Of a stretch of 64,000 nt of DNA, positions 1,364 to 11,738 are shown one piece after another; the first letter of the stretch is position 1; the number at the start of each line of letters is the position of its first letter. Below the pieces are notes generated by a model. That model saw only the letters and a program-made list of their open reading frames with translations, did not search any database and was not told the DNA's origin. Source of the DNA: Albifimbria verrucaria (Eukaryota > Ascomycota > Sordariomycetes > Hypocreales > Stachybotryaceae). A program made the translations under genes and the position numbers. The stretch is from the NCBI GenBank assembly GCA_020081605.1, contig JAHREC010000016.1:744001-808000 (forward strand), read 5' to 3'.

Positions 1364-2274
1364 TCAAAGCGATTCACTTAGAAGTGCATGCTGCTGATGT
1401 CCCATATGCTCGACCTGGATCTTCATACTATCCAACACTCTCTTCTTGATGTTCACATCTTCAATATCAAACCCGTCAAACATTCCATGTGTTGCATGGA
1501 ACTCATACGGCTTGAGCGTCTTCCACATGCGCGTAACCTCTTCGGCGCTGAGCGGTATCATGTTCGGGATGCTCCACATGTACGCAAATGTAGTTGCGTT
1601 CTTGGGCCTTTCCCGTGGTGCCCAGTTCCCCAAGCCTGCTGGCGTCGTGACCAGGGTGTCTGCGTGGAACATCCGCCCGTCAAATATTGAGACGAGTGAG
1701 CCAGGAAAGTGCCCACCCAACTTGATAGCCTTGACCCCAGTACCCTCAATGTCTGTCTCTGTCGTGGTGAGAGCGACCTGATGATTCGACTTGAGCGCCG
1801 TCCAGGACATGTCCTCAGAGGAGAGGTATACAGGGCAGCGGAAGGCGCGTGCCCATTGGATATGTGTAGTATAGAAGTGTGGGTGGCTGATCACAATGGC
1901 TTTGAGCCCACCCGCTTTCTCGATATGGTCTATGGTCTCCTGATCCAAAAGCGTGATGCAATCCCAGAGCACATTGCCGTGGGGTGTCTTGATAAGAACG
2001 GGACGTTGACCAATCGCAAACTTGGGCGTCGTCTGGATGAAGGTGAGTCGTGAATCCTTCTCATAGGTCTTGAACTCGTTCCGGTGCGACTTTTGAACCT
2101 CTTCGAGTGTAGTGAATGCCTGGCCTGAAGAGGGGACGTACTGTCGCTCATCGTCGCAGATGTAGCACGTCTTGAGAGCCTCACGATCAGTTGTGGGAAC
2201 TGTGTTCCACAAGTGCAGCAAATAAGCAACTTCGCTGCCTTGTCAGCTTCATAAGGCTCCAGTTCGATACCCAT
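1364..2274 (-). CDS. metallo-beta-lactamase-fold hydrolase, about 303 aa, one frame break
   Basis: Intronless. ATG at 2274 opens a 27-residue N-terminus ending in a zinc-ribbon-like TCGTQFP motif. The reading then continues one frame over with TTDREALKTC-YICDD, giving a CxxC...CxxC pair. A single missing base in the GGG run near 2195..2197 explains the switch. The MBL fold shows a metal-ligand-like HPHFYTTH segment (a variant of HxHxDH), a following HADTLVTT strand and a C-terminal HATHGMF histidine. Fungal homologues of this type are mostly annotated only as MBL-fold hydrolases; the substrate is unknown. No signal peptide, so probably cytosolic. If the base is truly missing, translation from ATG would stop early and the gene would be dead. 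Confidence 0.75.
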
Positions 2275-3041: not shown

Positions 3042-6000
3042 TTAAACACCAAAATGAACATAAGCTGCCCAGCGATGGCTACTTTCAGAGACCATTTCTT
3101 CCCATGAAACAAGGTAAGCATCTCTTGTGTGCACTCTTCTACTTTGACTATCTTCTCTGCCGAGTCGATCACGTAGCATCCTAATAGCTCGGTGGAGCGA
3201 ACGACATACTGCCTGGTCGGTCAGCCCGTCGCGCGCCAATGCCTCGTAGAATATTTTTGCAACATCACATGAGATTTCGTCTTCTACATCGCACAGTGTC
3301 CCAATTACATGTCGAAATCCCGCAAGTTGACAAGCGCTGATGATGTGAATGCCTTCATCGATAAGTTTATCAACGCTGTTAGACCCGGTTGAGCAAGCGG
3401 CAAGATAAGCCAAAAACGGCTGATTATTGTGCAGCCGTAGGTCAAGCAAATCTCCTGCTGTCAGGGATCTTCTTTCCAGTCTTGTAGTACCAGGAGCTTT
3501 TCGAAGGCCCTGCTGGGCTTGAATATCCGTGGCCTGCAAAGTGAAACATGGTGCAGGTGTCTAGTTGTTCTAGAACACTTTTCTTCAAAGGCGATGGCAA
3601 CACAGCTCTTATTTGGAGCCGCTGACAAATATCTCTCACGATTTCTATCTCACGTTCCACGAAATGCAACGTTGGTAGACCTGATGTATGAGGCATGGCT
3701 ACCAAGCAAGCTTAGCCGGTTTGTTGCACACTGGAGTTTCGAGGAAGAGCTTGCCGCCCGTACACCAGACTCTTAACCGATGAGCTGTAAGATGAAATGA
3801 CTCTATCCAGTACCGTTTTGCCGGCATCTTCTATGCAATCTCCCGCAGCGTGTATGGGAAGACGTGTGAGAAGACCAGTCGGGATCCACCAAACGTGAGG
3901 CCATTCATCATCGGAAACTGGGTCATTGAAACCAAGCGCATCTAGTATTGGACAAGCGATAGTATCCCAAAGCCATTTTTGCATCATAGTCATATCATGA
4001 AAAGTTCCTCTAAACGTGGAATATTTTCGGATATCCTCCAGAGTTAGTGTCTGCAATCTGATGACACGAATCTGATTGTGCTGGATGAGGAACGCGTCGC
4101 AACGGTATTCACTTGCATTCAAGACGACAATTGGACCTGATACAGCTGCAGCCATCATCTCATTCGCGGTCAGCGGCATCAAGAAGTTCTCCAGTCCAGG
4201 TAGTGCTCGAATCTGTGCAATGAGCTTGTTCAGTCTCTGTTCTGTCCCAATCTGCCTTTCCATCTGTCGTCTTGATGGATTTAGAAACTCGAAGCTGTCT
4301 ATACCATCCAAGTTTCTTTGAAGGCACATATACGCGTCCGCCAAGGCGGGATGTCGCTGCGCGAGCTTAGAAACATCCACTCGCATTTCCATCAATGCAC
4401 CAGCGATGACGCCTCTGCCACTTTCAAGAAGTTCCAAAGCATAGTAGGCGCTCCTATTTGCATTCAAGGAGACTGCTGCTGCTATGGAGGCGAGGCCGGA
4501 GAATTCCGCGAGCAAACGCTCTTTATCCGACGGTTGAAGATATCGCAAACCTACAGAAGGGAGAAGCTTAATGACTTCCTCTAACAGGGAGCTTAGTTTC
4601 TGCCACTCTGATCGCGAGGTAAGAATCCTGCTTGATTCCAGGCATGCCCGTATACGATCTGATGGCTGAGCAGAACTGCAATCCCAGGCTTTCAGATAAG
4701 AATCTAATGCCCGGTCGAAGTCAACACTCGAATTGTTCCGTTCAGCTCGGTGGACAAGCCAAGTTCCATGGTTGCGCAGCCGAGCCGCCCGTGCAGGGTG
4801 GTCGAGAGGAGTGACATCCACAGCCAAACAGGTCACCTCTATAGCTCGATTCAGGCTCTCAGTAAAGCCATCACGTTCATATTGCTTGCCAAGCCAGGTT
4901 CCAAAACTATCCAACAGGCCAGCTCTTGCGGGGTGATCGAAAGGGTGGCACATAGGGCTATGTCAGTAAATATAATGGCTTGGTCAAGATCTTGCGGGAA
5001 TCCCTTTCTTCATACCGCCTAGCAAGCCAGGTGGCAAGAGAGGCGAACCAACGGGCTCGGTTGGGGTGGTCAAGCTGACCAGTCCATAGAACCTGATGCG
5101 TGATCCTAATAGCCTCGTTGAGATCATTAGTCGCCCCTGTCCTCTCGTACTGCTTTCCTATCCATTGCCCTAAGCTAATGGCTCGATCAGCAAAATCCGC
5201 ATGATTAGAAGGTGTACTATCTAAAGCTGCCCTAGTCACCTCGATCGCGCGATTGAGGTCCTCTGTTGCTCCGATGCATTTATATCGCGTACCGTACCAA
5301 TGACCAAGACTAGCTAGGCACTCAGCATGGCCCGGTTCCCCACTGTGAAGATATTGAGACTTCTTGTGATCATAGATATGGCCGTGTTGAGATGATCGAT
5401 TCTTCCAGTACCTTCATAGTACTTCCCCATCAAGACGCCATATTGTTTCAACAAATTCACTGCCTTAGCATCGCTAGGCTTATGCGTCTTGATAGCCTCA
5501 GTTGTCAGCTCGGCTGCTAAACCCAAATCCTCAATTTTCCCTGTTCGCTCATACCGCATTACAAGCAGTTTTACCAGGTCAATTGATCGATCGAATCGGT
5601 TCGGATCATCAGAAGATATGTTCTCTAACGCTGCTCGTACATCTTCAATGCTTGCATCCAGGCTTCTTCTGTCTACCGCTACGTCGAATCGCGCCTCGAA
5701 GTTAGCTGATTTGGTAGACCTTATGTCCGTTTTAGTGCCCATTGAAGTCAATAACCTAACAATAGACTCATGCCCTTTGAACGAAGCAGCCTGTAAAGCA
5801 TTGCCGTACCAGCCGCCGTATGCGTCCATGTCAGCTCCATTCTCTAGCAGAACTCGAACGATGGATTCATGACCTCTGACAGATGCTGCTTGAAGAGCAC
5901 TGCCATAAATGTGACCCTCGGCGTTGACATTGGCTCCTTGTTCCAGCAAACGCTCTACTGTGTGTTTTAGCCCCCAAATGACGCATAGTAAAGTGGAAGA

Positions 6001-8946
6001 GCTGGTGTACAGTACGAATAGGTTGGCTCATCGTTCCACGGCTGATCTGGACAATAAAGTCGATAGCAGGTAGTATAATGTTTATCAGACGAAAGGAAAA
6101 AGTCCAAAATCATCTTGAGGACGGTTTTGTCATCATTCTCGACTTCTGCCGCATAATCCATCCAATATCTAGCGCAGTACTGTGCTAGTGGAAAAGCCTG
6201 TCTAATCTCTGGGAGAGATAAATCTCTTTCTAAATTCAAGAGATATGAGAGACAAATCTTGGTGATGGACGCCTTGGCAGCGGCTAGGTGGAAGTACTGT
6301 AGGTAGTCTGTGTCAAGCCTGTCGGAAGTCAAATACTGCTTGACTGAGAAGTGTGCTAGTTGAAGCTCGGTCACCACTTCTATATCAGCGCTCCTTACCG
6401 GCCTAGCTATAACGGTAACCAAAGAGGCGTAGTAATGTGATATTTCTTTCGGTTCCGGCATTCTGTTCTGTGGGTCAAAAGCAGGGTTGCCTTTAGGGTC
6501 CACCGCCATTACCTCAACGGCTTCTTCTATTCGCAAAGGTCGTTCTGAAAAGGTCAGAAATTGTAGGAGCCTTATGGCCTTTTTCTTGTATCCATGAGGT
6601 ATATTTCTCAAAATCTGAGCATATGTTTTGTCCAGGGTATCAGGTAAGGAATCAAGGGCTACCTTGAGAGTCGGATAGTCAAGGCAGGCTTCTAGGGTGT
6701 TAATCTGGCATGCAACCCATCGAAACCTGTTATTGTCAGAATCACAGCACAAGTGAAAAAATGGTAGGTTTAGAACTTACATCCCGTCCGACTTTTCCAT
6801 CAACTTTGTCTCTATTTCCTTCTGGACCTTTGGCCGCTCTCGCCATCTCGAAAGTCCATCATCTTGCTGAACTCGAGTATGAACATAGGAGCGGATATCA
6901 TCAGTGATCAAATCACTCCCAATCGAAAGAATGGAGCTATTAGGAGCCCATTCCTTTAAAGACAACTCGATTTCACCTTCCAGGCGACTTGTTGCGAGAA
7001 TGTGGACATTAGTAAGCTTTGAAACCATCATGTTTTTATCCACGATAATACTCCCTCGGTTGGGGAACCTTTCCTAGTTGTACATTCATCGAGAGCATCA
7101 TGGATGATCCAAATTTCATCCAATTCTACCACCATATGCTGGAAAGTTATGCATAAGGATTTGGTACTTGGCTGTATGTGTCCGTCTTCGCAAGAAGAGA
7201 AAAGTAAATCCAGCGGCTTCCGAGCATTTTCGCGTCGCTTATATAGCTGATCAATCAATGAACGTATCATACCATCAATTGTTTGCTTAGTGATTTCGCC
7301 GAAATCGAAATAGAAGTAAATGACTGGGGAGGTTGGAAAAGCCTTGGTTACTTCCTCGATGATCGTAGAGCTGAGGACTGTTTTTCCACATCCAGGAATG
7401 CCATGCAACCATAAAATAGAATTCGGTTGAGACTTCCATCTAAAGAAGTCATCGCTCTGAAGAAACCAAGAGCCTGAGTCCTCATGGCGTTGTTCCAATG
7501 CTTTGTTGTGATTCCAAGAGGGGTCTGGAGGTTTCAGCCACTCTACGATTTTCTCATAGCTCCTGTCCATTTTCAGGTCTTCAACATTTTTGTTTATCGT
7601 TTTTACAACTGTTAGTCGTGTCAGTAGCTGAGAAACTTAGTGTGAACCACAAAATGGTGGGACTGCTTTATATTGAGCCCCGAAGGAAGACTAACTTGAT
7701 TGCAGACTCTCAATAGCTTTCTTGGTATTCTTCACTTGTCTGACGGGAACCACACCAAGAAGTTCCTTTGCATAAGCAGCTGCCGCCATGGCAGCATACT
7801 TTTGCCATCCATCGTTCTTATGGGAGTCAGCATAATCGCTAATCCCCGAATAACGAGGCAAGGGAATGCATTCATCAAGCCGGCTGCCTCCATTTCAAGA
7901 CATATGCATTCTCCTCCAGTCTTCTCATTCAAGGCAGTTACTAATTCGTCTCTCTCTTTGGCGTTCTTCATAACGGTATTTCCGGAAGCTATTAAGCCGT
8001 AATGGACATTTGGCACGACTGATGGCCTTACGCTGCGCTTTACCAAGTGCTTTGCGCCGGTTTTCTCGCACTCAGTACAGTCAGCTCTTCCTTTGTGGTC
8101 GAAGGATGCCTTAAATAATCTATCATTTTCTTGGCCTTGGTATGCAAAAGACAGGTCAGCCTTGGACATGCGTGACTGTAAGTCAACTATAATCCTCGAC
8201 AAATTTGATTTGCCAGCCATGTAATCTGATTTAACAGTCGTAACAGCCTTGAGAAGAACAGCTGGTGGTTTTGCGAGGAATCCAACTCGCTCAAAAGTGT
8301 GTGTCGTTCTTTTTCCAAGGTCATACTGAACAACACCACCACTAGTTCCTTTGGGATCACTGACAGCAACATCTCCCAGGCGAATATCTCTGCCTCTTTC
8401 TGGGGCCGGAATACCACCGCCAATGCCTACAAGAAGGCCGATACGTAGTGAAGGGATCGACGTAACCATAGAATTCGCCGTGATGGCTGCAGATGCAACG
8501 CCGTAGACGCCTGATTCGAACGCTGCAATAACCACATTGTGTTTGCCAATGCGACCCCAGGTATAGATATTATCGTCGGACTGCTGCTGTTCGAAATCAG
8601 ATGGCTCTTCATGCTGTTCGTCAAGTGCAGCCTTTGCAGCAGCCAACTCAATAGCGAGAACGGTAATCAACCCGACGGTATAGTCTTCACTCTCCAAGAC
8701 CTTCTTTGGGCGATCCACCTCATTGAACGATGGATCATTGACAGGTGACTGTCTTGCCACTTGATCAGACAGTGTGGTTTCGGCTGGCTTCGATGTTTCC
8801 AGTGTTCCTGTGATGTTTGTTGCAGAGCCACGCCTTGGAGTAGCAAGGGATGCATAAGATGAGAAGAAAAAGACATATGATAGAAGAGTGACAACGGTTA
8901 AAGCTGCTATGGCTCCAAAGTTCGAAGCCCAGATATCGAGAGTCAT
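3042..8946 (-). CDS. giant NLR-like protein: TM / PNP_UDP / NACHT / ankyrin / TPR / CHAT protease
   Basis: ATG at 8946; introns 7609..7695 and 6727..6780; stop at 3042; about 1,923 residues after frame correction. Order: hydrophobic helix (about 8-30); nucleoside-phosphorylase-like domain (about 88-400; GIGGGIP, EMEAAGLMN, and a RGISDYADSH motif in the restored frame); NACHT NTPase (Walker A GIPGCGKT near 487-494, Walker B IIHDALDEC near 588); winged-helix-like region; at least two ankyrin repeats (about 945-1010); a run of about 50-residue TPR units with the YERTG...DLNxAI pattern (about 1050-1420); CHAT domain with catalytic His in HFAGHG (about 1761) and Cys in AACSTG (about 1807). Ankyrins and TPRs share one unbroken frame (5314..5949), so the fusion does not depend on correction. 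One-base breaks lie near 7845, 7035, 5973, 5339, 5003, 4944, 3493 and 3465, all in short homopolymers. A TAA at 3712..3714 interrupts the CHAT domain in frame. Expected role: self/non-self or pathogen sensing with protease output (inference). Confidence 0.8.
3712..3714 (-). other. in-frame TAA inside the CHAT domain
   Basis: Frame on both sides is identical: SSVQQTG, stop, ACLVAMPHTSG. The second half is the strand leading to the catalytic-histidine motif. A single C-to-T change (CAA to TAA) would create it, as would two compensating indels (reading TGLSLLVAMP). Unlike the other breaks it is not explained by one short homopolymer. If real, it removes both catalytic residues. Confidence 0.6.
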
Positions 8947-9557: not shown

Positions 9558-11738
9558 CTACCACAGCTCCCACATTTGATTGCCAATGGCAATGAGTCGA
9601 TTGAACAACTCATCACGCATTGAGATGGCTGTGAGATGGAAGGTCTTTCCTGTCTTGGTCGTCACTATGAGACCGTCCATAATCTCCTTCTCCAAGGCCC
9701 ATCCTACTACGATCTTGGACTTCCACCCAAGGCCACCGACCTTGGTCAGCTCATCAATGTCCTGAATAAGAATAGTCCAAGCTGGGTTTACGTCGTCGAT
9801 ATTCGATGTCCAGCTCAAAGCAGGCGTGGTGGCCGTTTCTGTGAGGTATGCGTGGCCCTTCTGACCCTTGTATCTGGCTGGGAAGCGGATCGGCCCAGTG
9901 ACTGGGTTGGGCGACCTCTTGACGACGCCTAAGCGGTCTCTTGCGTGTCTCGCACCAGCAGCAGCTTTGGCCTTGTCGGCAGTAAGTGCTGTTTGGATAC
10001 CGCCTTTTGTAACGCCTTTGATTGCGTTGAGGATTCGCTTTGCCTTCTTTGGTTTTTCCTTGGGCTCTTCTGCCGTCAGATCCATGTCGGGGTTCGGTTG
10101 AATGGCGTCCTGAATCTCCGCGTCGGAGGCTCCTTCTGTATTCATTAGGCCTCAAACCACACTACAACGTTGAAGAGTTCTGACTCACCTAGATGCTCCA
10201 AATCTTGGCCGGCAGTTGCATGTGGCTTTACTGGAGGGGGCGCCTGAAAATGGCGGAGGCGGGATCGGCGCCCTGTTCCTCTCCCCGATTCTCAAGAGCG
10301 TAACAGCAAGCTGTGCATTCGTAGGAACACCACGTAGGATGGTATGGCGAAGCTCAACATATTTCTCCCAGCGAGGATAGGTTCTGTTGATTAAGGAAAT
10401 GGCGCGCGAAATAATAGGGTCGCCGAAGAAGCCAAAGCCTACGCCAAATCCCAAGCCCTTTGTGACCATATATGACGTCGTGAAGCAAGATAAGATGAAC
10501 ATTGGTACCAAGCAAGAAGCAAGAACAAATCGAGGTCGGTCCTGCGGGAAGGGAGGCGTCGGGCTAAGCGCGTTGCTGAATCGTTCCCAGGTATCCACGA
10601 ACTGCGACAACGAACGCAATGCCGGGCCAGCCTTGTTCCACACTGCACGAGAGACAGGCACCTTTGTTCGATCGTGCTCAACAGTCGATTCGTGGCCCTT
10701 GCTCTTGTCTCGTGCCGACGATACGCCTGCAGTCATCTCCGTGGGATCGGGCGCAATCGTGTCTGCGTGGGGATCGCCTTGTGGGTGCTTTCCTGCAGCT
10801 GTGCTTACGACAAGCTGTTGAGAGTTACGTTAGCCTCGAGGGATTCTATTTCTGCAAAATCATTAAAATCATCGCTTACACCTGAACATACCGTAGATAT
10901 GCTGTTGACAAAGCTATGAGCCTCCTGCTCCACGGCCTCTCCTTCGTGCTTCTCAGGCGCTCCTGTGATGGAATCCTCAGATGCCAGCACTCCCGCTGCT
11001 GGTTTCTTAACGCCTCCCGTCGAAGGGTCGATGAGCGATGCCGGTGCGGGAGGAAACAGTAAGTGCGTGATTCCGGATAGACAATGAGGACGATACCAAA
11101 GGCAACCAAAGTTGGGATAACCAAATCCAACAGCCAGGCTGCTGTGTAGACGGCTAAGAAGCCCGAAGTTCGCTGCCACTCCCTCCACGATCGAAGCCGC
11201 ACAATATGTTTCCAAAATGAAAAGAGGCTGACGGCGACAACGATGTAGAATCGCTCGAGCTGGGCACGTAGTTTATCGGGGAGAACTCCTCGTTATCGGC
11301 GACGTTCATGTCGAGATTAGCAAGAGGCGTCTCCTCGATGCTCTTGACATGGAAGGAGTGTTTGTTGAATCGTCGTATCAGCGTCCATAGTTCCTCGTTC
11401 TTCATGCCGCCTACAAGCGGCTGTGGAACTTCTTCAGGGCCATCGTTCCACCCCAGGTCATTGACCTCTGTTCCTACATGTTGGACTTGGCTGGCGCCTT
11501 TATCCTCAGGGTCTGCTTCGAGGCTCTCGTCGGCGAGGGCGTGGCTGGCTGTAGGCTGCTCTTCTTCGTGCTTCTCGACCAGCACAGGCTCGCTAGTTGC
11601 TGGAGATGCGTCCGCGGTGCCAGGTTGAGGGTCCGCAGGCAATGGCACAGACCCGTCTTGAGGAATAGCTACTGGTATGGCGTCGTCTTGGTCAACTGGC
11701 ACTGCCACGGTGCCGCCTTGGCCGACTGGCACTGACAT
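9558..11738 (-). CDS. DUF3292 family membrane protein, about 683 aa, two introns
   Basis: Exons 11738..10892, 10814..10189 and 10135..9558; introns have GTATGT and GTGAGT donors and CTAAC/CCTAATG-type branch sites. The N-terminus is an acidic Pro/Ala/Val-rich low-complexity stretch. It is followed by DEEFSP/LRAQLERFYIVV and a paired hydrophobic region (WREWQRTSGFLAVY then a long membrane segment), a second hydrophobic segment around VLASCLVPMFILSCFTTSYM, and a C-terminal lipid-binding-like beta domain (WTILIQDIDELTKVGGLGWK). This order matches fungal DUF3292 proteins, whose role is not established. Frame breaks: one base short near 11279 and 11055, one base long (or two short) in the run at 10236..10240. 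Membrane location is predicted from the hydrophobic segments. Confidence 0.8.

Follow-up and report, generated by a model that had tools for sequence, protein, structure and literature searches.

A predicted NLR-type receptor gene of Albifimbria verrucaria with a PNP-like domain in front and a CHAT domain behind

Introduction

NOD-like receptors (NLRs) are usually described as an effector, a switch and a sensor. Among fungal NLRs domains are assorted combinatorially, and the P. anserina protein Pa_3_8560 is one with PNP_UDP, NACHT and ankyrin (ANK) domains (PMC4986451). Other fungal NLRs carry an N-terminal CHAT or S8 protease and adjoin gasdermin genes (PMC10197012, PMC12881547, PMC9815663), and expansions of proteins with tetratricopeptide repeats (TPRs) and a CHAT domain are found in corals (PMC12314368). 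In A. fumigatus the incompatibility genes include hetA, a PNP_UDP gene of which one allele has an NB-ARC domain, and hetB, a CHAT gene (PMC11138114). Here we describe a gene of the fungus Albifimbria verrucaria that joins in one polypeptide these two families, PNP and CHAT, each tied to A. fumigatus heterokaryon incompatibility. It lies on the minus strand, from 8946 to 3042, of a 64,000-nucleotide stretch (assembly GCA_020081605.1, contig JAHREC010000016.1, positions 744,001 to 808,000), which we refer to as the window. With modest confidence we read it as the gene of an NLR-type receptor, a STAND NTPase, that is enzymatic at both ends, and the breaks in the window copy as most likely assembly errors.

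Domain organization of the gene

The gene encodes, in this order, an N-terminal hydrophobic segment, a PNP/MTAN-like domain, a NACHT domain, a winged-helix region, ankyrin repeats, TPRs and a CHAT domain, and this domain order is real. Its features, in window coordinates, are as follows.

3042..8946, minus strand: whole gene PNP-NACHT-ANK-TPR-CHAT; start ATG 8946-8944, stop 3044-3042
8695..8946, minus strand: N-terminal extension, residues 1-84; hydrophobic stretch; 74/84 residues identical in P0236
7697..8694, minus strand: PNP_UDP/MTAN-like nucleosidase domain, residues 85-417; EMEAAG and ISDYADSHKN motifs; frame break at about 7843
7609..7695, minus strand: intron 1, 87 nt; GT...AG, with a CTAAC-type branch sequence; in-frame stop inside
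6783..7477, minus strand: NACHT/NPHP3_N domain; P-loop GIPGCGKT with NACHT sequence after it; frame break at about 7034
6727..6780, minus strand: intron 2, 54 nt; GTAAGT...CAG; in-frame stop inside
5970..6725, minus strand: winged-helix/arm region of the NACHT module; GPIID_WHD at E 0.081, below cut-off (window piece)
5731..5970, minus strand: ankyrin repeats, residues 950-1029; frame break at about 5970, at the N-terminal edge
4681..5730, minus strand: linker and TPR array; frame breaks at about 5350, 4999 and 4952
3048..3978, minus strand: CHAT caspase/separase-like protease domain; frame breaks at about 3496 and 3466; fold from the relative P0002
3712..3714, minus strand: TAA in frame, with the CHAT His and Cys downstream of it; both P0001 and P0002 have Gln at this codon
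3529..3531, minus strand: presumed catalytic His codon (HFAGHG)
3393..3395, minus strand: presumed catalytic Cys codon (AACSTG)

Pfam searches with pieces of the window protein identify the NACHT/NPHP3_N domain (PF24883, E 1.1e-35; PF05729, 31.1 bits against a cut-off of 26.7) and, C-terminal to this NTPase, the superstructure-forming repeats (PF00023 ankyrins, E 1.9e-12; TPR_10, E 1.2e-7). The TPRs are followed by a match to the CHAT profile of 55.4 bits (cut-off 24), which rises to 112.8 bits in P0002. No Pfam profile matches the PNP piece at E<=1, presumably an effect of its broken frame; the intact P0236 exon, which is 96% identical, matches PNP_UDP_1 at 28.6 bits (cut-off 25.1), and the window piece was modelled, at low confidence, as an MTAN-type fold. 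The gene has three sequence features of a fungal NLR, a P-loop NTPase, C-terminal repeats and an N-terminal effector domain, the last of these recognized through P0236. We take the EMEAAG and DYADSH motifs to be the MTAN catalytic residues, and the HFAGHG His and AACSTG Cys are presumably the CHAT catalytic dyad.

A sequence-only reading of this DNA had proposed the same order of five domains, had pointed to the HFAGHG and AACSTG motifs, and had placed the ankyrin-to-TPR junction within one uninterrupted frame. All three hold: the order through the Pfam matches together with the P0236 exon and the low-confidence model of the PNP domain, the motifs by their presence in the window, and the junction through a frame (6027-5317) that has no stop between the two sets of repeats. 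Its further claim of a single gene stands as regards domain order and linkage, but as sequenced this is not one readable frame, and the eight frame breaks and the TAA had gone unnoticed. Both introns are canonical as read from the sequence, and both are supported by relatives, since the P0236 open reading frame (ORF) ends at the start of intron 1 and that of P0001 begins inside the 3' end of intron 2.

The hydrophobic stretch at the N-terminus spans residues 10-28 (window 8919-8863, minus strand; Kyte-Doolittle mean 2.17) and is possibly a membrane anchor on an NLR. It is kept in P0236 and is not present in P0003 or, by eye, in P0237; among ten homologues that were scored, P0085 and P0086 alone exceed 1.6 in any stretch, the scored region there being 115-175 residues.

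Relatives with intact reading frames

The homologue searches each scored about 8000 candidates, and the homologues listed are the best 120 of 190 matches to a read-through query (the window protein with X at the breaks), 120 of 975 in a second search and 120 of 4867 for the PNP piece. Among these, P0003 (HD806DRAFT_488009, Xylariaceae sp. AK1471, 2032 aa) is the only other protein with the whole architecture. It is 38% identical over 96% of the query and contains PNP_UDP_1, NPHP3_N, NACHT, Ank, TPR_10 and CHAT, each over cut-off and in the same order as in the window.

Two metagenomic proteins, P0001 (1240 aa) and P0002 (1191 aa), are closer, with 85-86% identity across 62-64% of the query, and each runs in one ORF from the winged helix through ANK, TPR and CHAT to the C-terminus with no stop between ANK and TPR. 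A counterpart of the front end is P0236 (418 aa), an intact exon that matches the PNP piece; it agrees with P0001 in source and in longest contig (29,608 bases), and the two apparently share a contig.

The 235 homologues listed from the first two of these searches were screened by BLAST. PNP and CHAT stood together in P0003 only, as did NACHT and CHAT, and 141 of the 235 had CHAT without a PNP or NACHT match, although this screen under-counts, having missed P0124 and P0135 (NPHP3_N by Pfam), and a crude ankyrin pattern missed P0001. By Pfam, P0124 has NACHT/NPHP3_N together with TPR-CHAT, and P0140 combines PF17100 (NACHT_N) with CHAT. A receptor with PNP in front and CHAT behind appears to be a rare combination among these sequences.

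Both halves of P0003 have nearer relatives among unfused proteins: the C-half is 64% identical to P0135 but 43% to the window, and the N-half 45% identical to P0004 but 36% to the window. In a free quick tree of the C-half, which was built from the window and 55 of 140 C-half matches and is biased by rows drawn mostly from a P0003-seeded search, P0003 sits among unfused TPR-CHAT proteins with SH-aLRT support of 97. The pairwise identities and this tree hint at separate fusion origins in P0003 and the window, but approximately unbiased (AU) tests do not reject a single clade of the two in either half (C-half p 0.629; N-half p 0.553, in a tree of the window, 45 of 84 N-half matches and P0003), and the trees that held them together reached a higher likelihood than the quick searches did. 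The trees do not discriminate between one origin of the fusion and two.

Frame breaks and their probable cause

Besides the two introns the gene contains eight frame changes without room for an intron, located by tblastn of P0002 and P0004 against the window, and every one is net -1. Seven joins were measured, with a room of -1 in six and of -2 in one, which the frames resolve into two -1 steps; none of the PNP, NACHT, TPR and CHAT domains is free of breaks. The simplest cause is error at base level in the assembly, because housekeeping genes of the same assembly are broken too. Its CCT/Cpn60 genes have five breaks, all -1; its HSP70 genes have six, four of them -1 and two +1 or -2; and its DUF3292 genes have three, all -1, of which two are in the receptor's neighbour. 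Examples of one-base loss in CCT and HSP70 genes are at C8:4817798-4819084, C15:3571233-3572766 and C8:3625486-3627277. One HSP70-like gene is interrupted by an in-frame stop inside its aligned part, which suggests that stops of the substitution type arise as well, and internal stops are listed in 11 of 46 CCT and HSP70 matches (7/24 and 4/22), some of which were inspected while the rest may be introns. Many base-level errors seem to have been left uncorrected in this assembly, and any finding of a broken gene in this genome needs a housekeeping-gene control. These similar losses, together with the intact frames of close relatives, make base-level assembly errors the most likely source of the breaks in the window copy.

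Sequence variation and the CHAT dyad

Identity to the close relatives varies along the protein. It is high in the PNP domain (328/332 residues identical to P0236, 98.8%), in the winged helix (221/230 to P0001 and 204/214 to P0002) and in the ankyrins (75/80 and 76/80, respectively). The linker and TPRs are the most diverged part (281/368 and 277/368, falling to 52% in segments of 60 residues), and the CHAT domain is 189/223 identical to P0001 and 213/223 (95.5%) to P0002. A conserved front half with a diverged first TPR segment fits a sensor in the TPRs, and these first TPRs are most likely the recognition surface; a caution is that P0001 and P0002 are closer to each other there (73-98%) than either is to the window. 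TPR and ANK repeats of fungal NLRs have been found to be under positive selection (PMC4986451).

Within an alignment of 34 CHAT proteins the His is present in 33 and the Cys in all 34. The window, P0002 and P0003 have both residues, which in the window follow the in-frame TAA. P0001 is without the His, yet P0236, the PNP exon that apparently shares its contig, is nearly identical to the window PNP.

Alternative explanations

Several observations weigh against an intact two-ended receptor whose breaks are all errors of assembly and whose sensor is the TPR array. First, the gene has 8 breaks in 5,764 bases (1.39/kb) against 11 in 25,812 (0.43/kb) for CCT and HSP70, an excess of about three times (P 0.004 Poisson, 0.014 conditional), although the profile-based control count probably misses close pairs of breaks, its intron-room test covers only neighbouring matches taken in pairs, of which single-piece matches supply none, and it omits a CCT pair in a divergent region (C10:5072110-5073522) and a compensated HSP70 stretch (C10:5394000-5394164). 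The higher density suggests that part of the damage may be real. Second, the in-frame TAA resembles a substitution and not an indel. Third, the CHAT His is replaced by Arg in P0001 (HFAGRG), so some alleles may do without the protease or carry it in an inactive form. Fourth, the stretch before CHAT, residues ~1471-1560, is also variable, the window being 67% identical to P0002 and 82-88% to P0001, and P0001 and P0002 also differ there (63-65%). Finally, no gasdermin-like neighbour was recognized among 15 Pfam-scanned ORFs (12 of them starting within 10 kb), a weak test that took in part of the listed ORFs and used no gasdermin profile or query.

The first two of these observations, the eight net -1 breaks at about three times the control density and the TAA, would also be expected if the window copy came from a two-ended NLR gene that has truly become a pseudogene or null allele, damaged by small deletions and a nonsense change in the manner of het genes polymorphic for presence and absence. 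The loss of the CHAT His in P0001 points the same way, as does a hetB idiomorph of A. fumigatus whose only product is a short protein with no known domain (PMC11138114). However, net -1 breaks also occur in the CCT, HSP70 and DUF3292 genes of the same assembly, and the identity of the PNP domain (98.8%) and the winged helix (96%) to relatives gives no sign of relaxed constraint there. RIP (repeat-induced point mutation) as the cause of decay was rejected, the composition indices of the gene (0.68, 1.41) resembling those of the rest of the window, and a DNA search of the assembly (48.4 Mb, 41 contigs) gave no second full-length match; besides the gene itself there are eight short partial matches of ~130-160 bases. 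We regard a null allele as less likely than assembly error.

It is also doubtful that the receptor works through one end only, either with the PNP half as effector and a CHAT tail that regulates or serves as a scaffold, or with the roles exchanged. Receptor families often include pseudo-enzyme tails, and the Arg in the CHAT domain of P0001, with a P0236 PNP exon 98.8% identical to that of the window, would suit such a protein, whereas the retention of His and Cys in the window, P0002 and P0003, and the close identity of the P0002 CHAT domain to that of the window, argue against it. It is highly improbable that the five-module protein is an artefact of gene model or assembly, a PNP-NACHT-ANK gene read together with an adjacent TPR-CHAT gene: in the P0135 model TPR-CHAT is followed by a truncated NACHT, as if a neighbouring gene had been joined on in error, the NACHT and CHAT domains as a rule occur in different proteins of the 235 homologues, and P0003 is itself a predicted protein, but ANK and TPR share an open frame in the window, P0001 and P0002, and P0003 has the same module order in another fungus.

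Proposed mechanism

For a two-ended receptor the NACHT domain would be an ATP-dependent switch that oligomerizes, and the ankyrin-TPR superhelix would hold the receptor shut and bear the recognition surface. The trigger would be a non-self or modified-self ligand, and assembly would gather the PNP domains and the CHAT domains. The N-terminal PNP might then cleave a purine nucleoside or nucleotide and, as the analogy of PNP effectors in bacteria suggests, deplete ATP, and the proteolytic target of the C-terminal CHAT might be a gasdermin-like protein, some other host protein or the receptor's own chain. The predicted outcome is regulated death of an infected or incompatible cell. The earlier proposal of a receptor with two effectors is supported in part, in its modules, order, motifs and folds; the activities of both ends we infer, as we do oligomerization, ligand sensing and cell death. 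Because hetA and hetB are incompatibility genes in A. fumigatus, we read the gene as that of a two-output allorecognition or defence receptor. If this is correct, one recognition event could drive both nucleotide depletion and proteolysis, or one end could control the other. A fuller picture, in which a membrane-tethered NLR carries PNP and CHAT killers on one NACHT, has a fast-changing TPR sensor and segregates as live-CHAT and dead-CHAT alleles at a het-type locus, is tentative, and we would put it at less than even.

Neighbouring genes and assembly redundancy

The neighbouring ORFs match DUF3292, an acyltransferase, a carboxylesterase, an oxidoreductase, a sub-threshold glycosyltransferase, or nothing. 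The DUF3292 gene adjoining the receptor (window 9558-11738, minus strand) has two net -1 breaks, an intron-sized gap and two TGA codons inside its main match. The gene on the other side (1364-2274, minus strand) is metallo-beta-lactamase (MBL) fold-like by eye, with two frames apparently joined near its N-terminus; its ORF 1364-2221 has no Pfam match at E<=0.1. The same CHAT match occurs with the same score on four contigs (C12:292477, C17:40684, C18:40684 and C19:40684), three of them at identical coordinates, and C17 to C19 look like redundant contigs.

Comparison with known systems

Domain assortment in fungal NLRs and the P0003 database entry are already known. The earlier reading knew of no description of this architecture, and this is upheld to the extent that, in the parts of the open-licence literature available to us, no description of an NLR with PNP in front of and CHAT behind one NACHT was found, though P0003 was already in the databases. 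P0003 shares all five modules in the same order, differing in its lack of the N-terminal hydrophobic segment. The fungal PNP_UDP-NACHT-ANK NLRs P0004 (Sarcosagium) and P0007 (Cenococcum) are 48-50% identical in the PNP-NACHT-winged helix-ANK half; the ankyrins are the last domain of P0004, which matches neither TPR nor CHAT, and no CHAT is listed for P0007. The TPR-CHAT half corresponds to fungal TPR-CHAT proteins and to the TPR-CHAT protein of Craspase (Csx29), which, unlike in the window, are separate proteins. P0124 (1731 aa, metagenomic) resembles the window in placing NACHT/NPHP3_N before TPR-CHAT in one protein, but is without a PNP or ankyrin match and starts in the middle of the NPHP3_N profile. 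The protease-NLRs near gasdermin genes likewise have an NLR and a caspase-like protease in one polypeptide; in these the protease is the N-terminal effector, whereas the A. verrucaria gene has PNP in that position and CHAT at the C-terminus.
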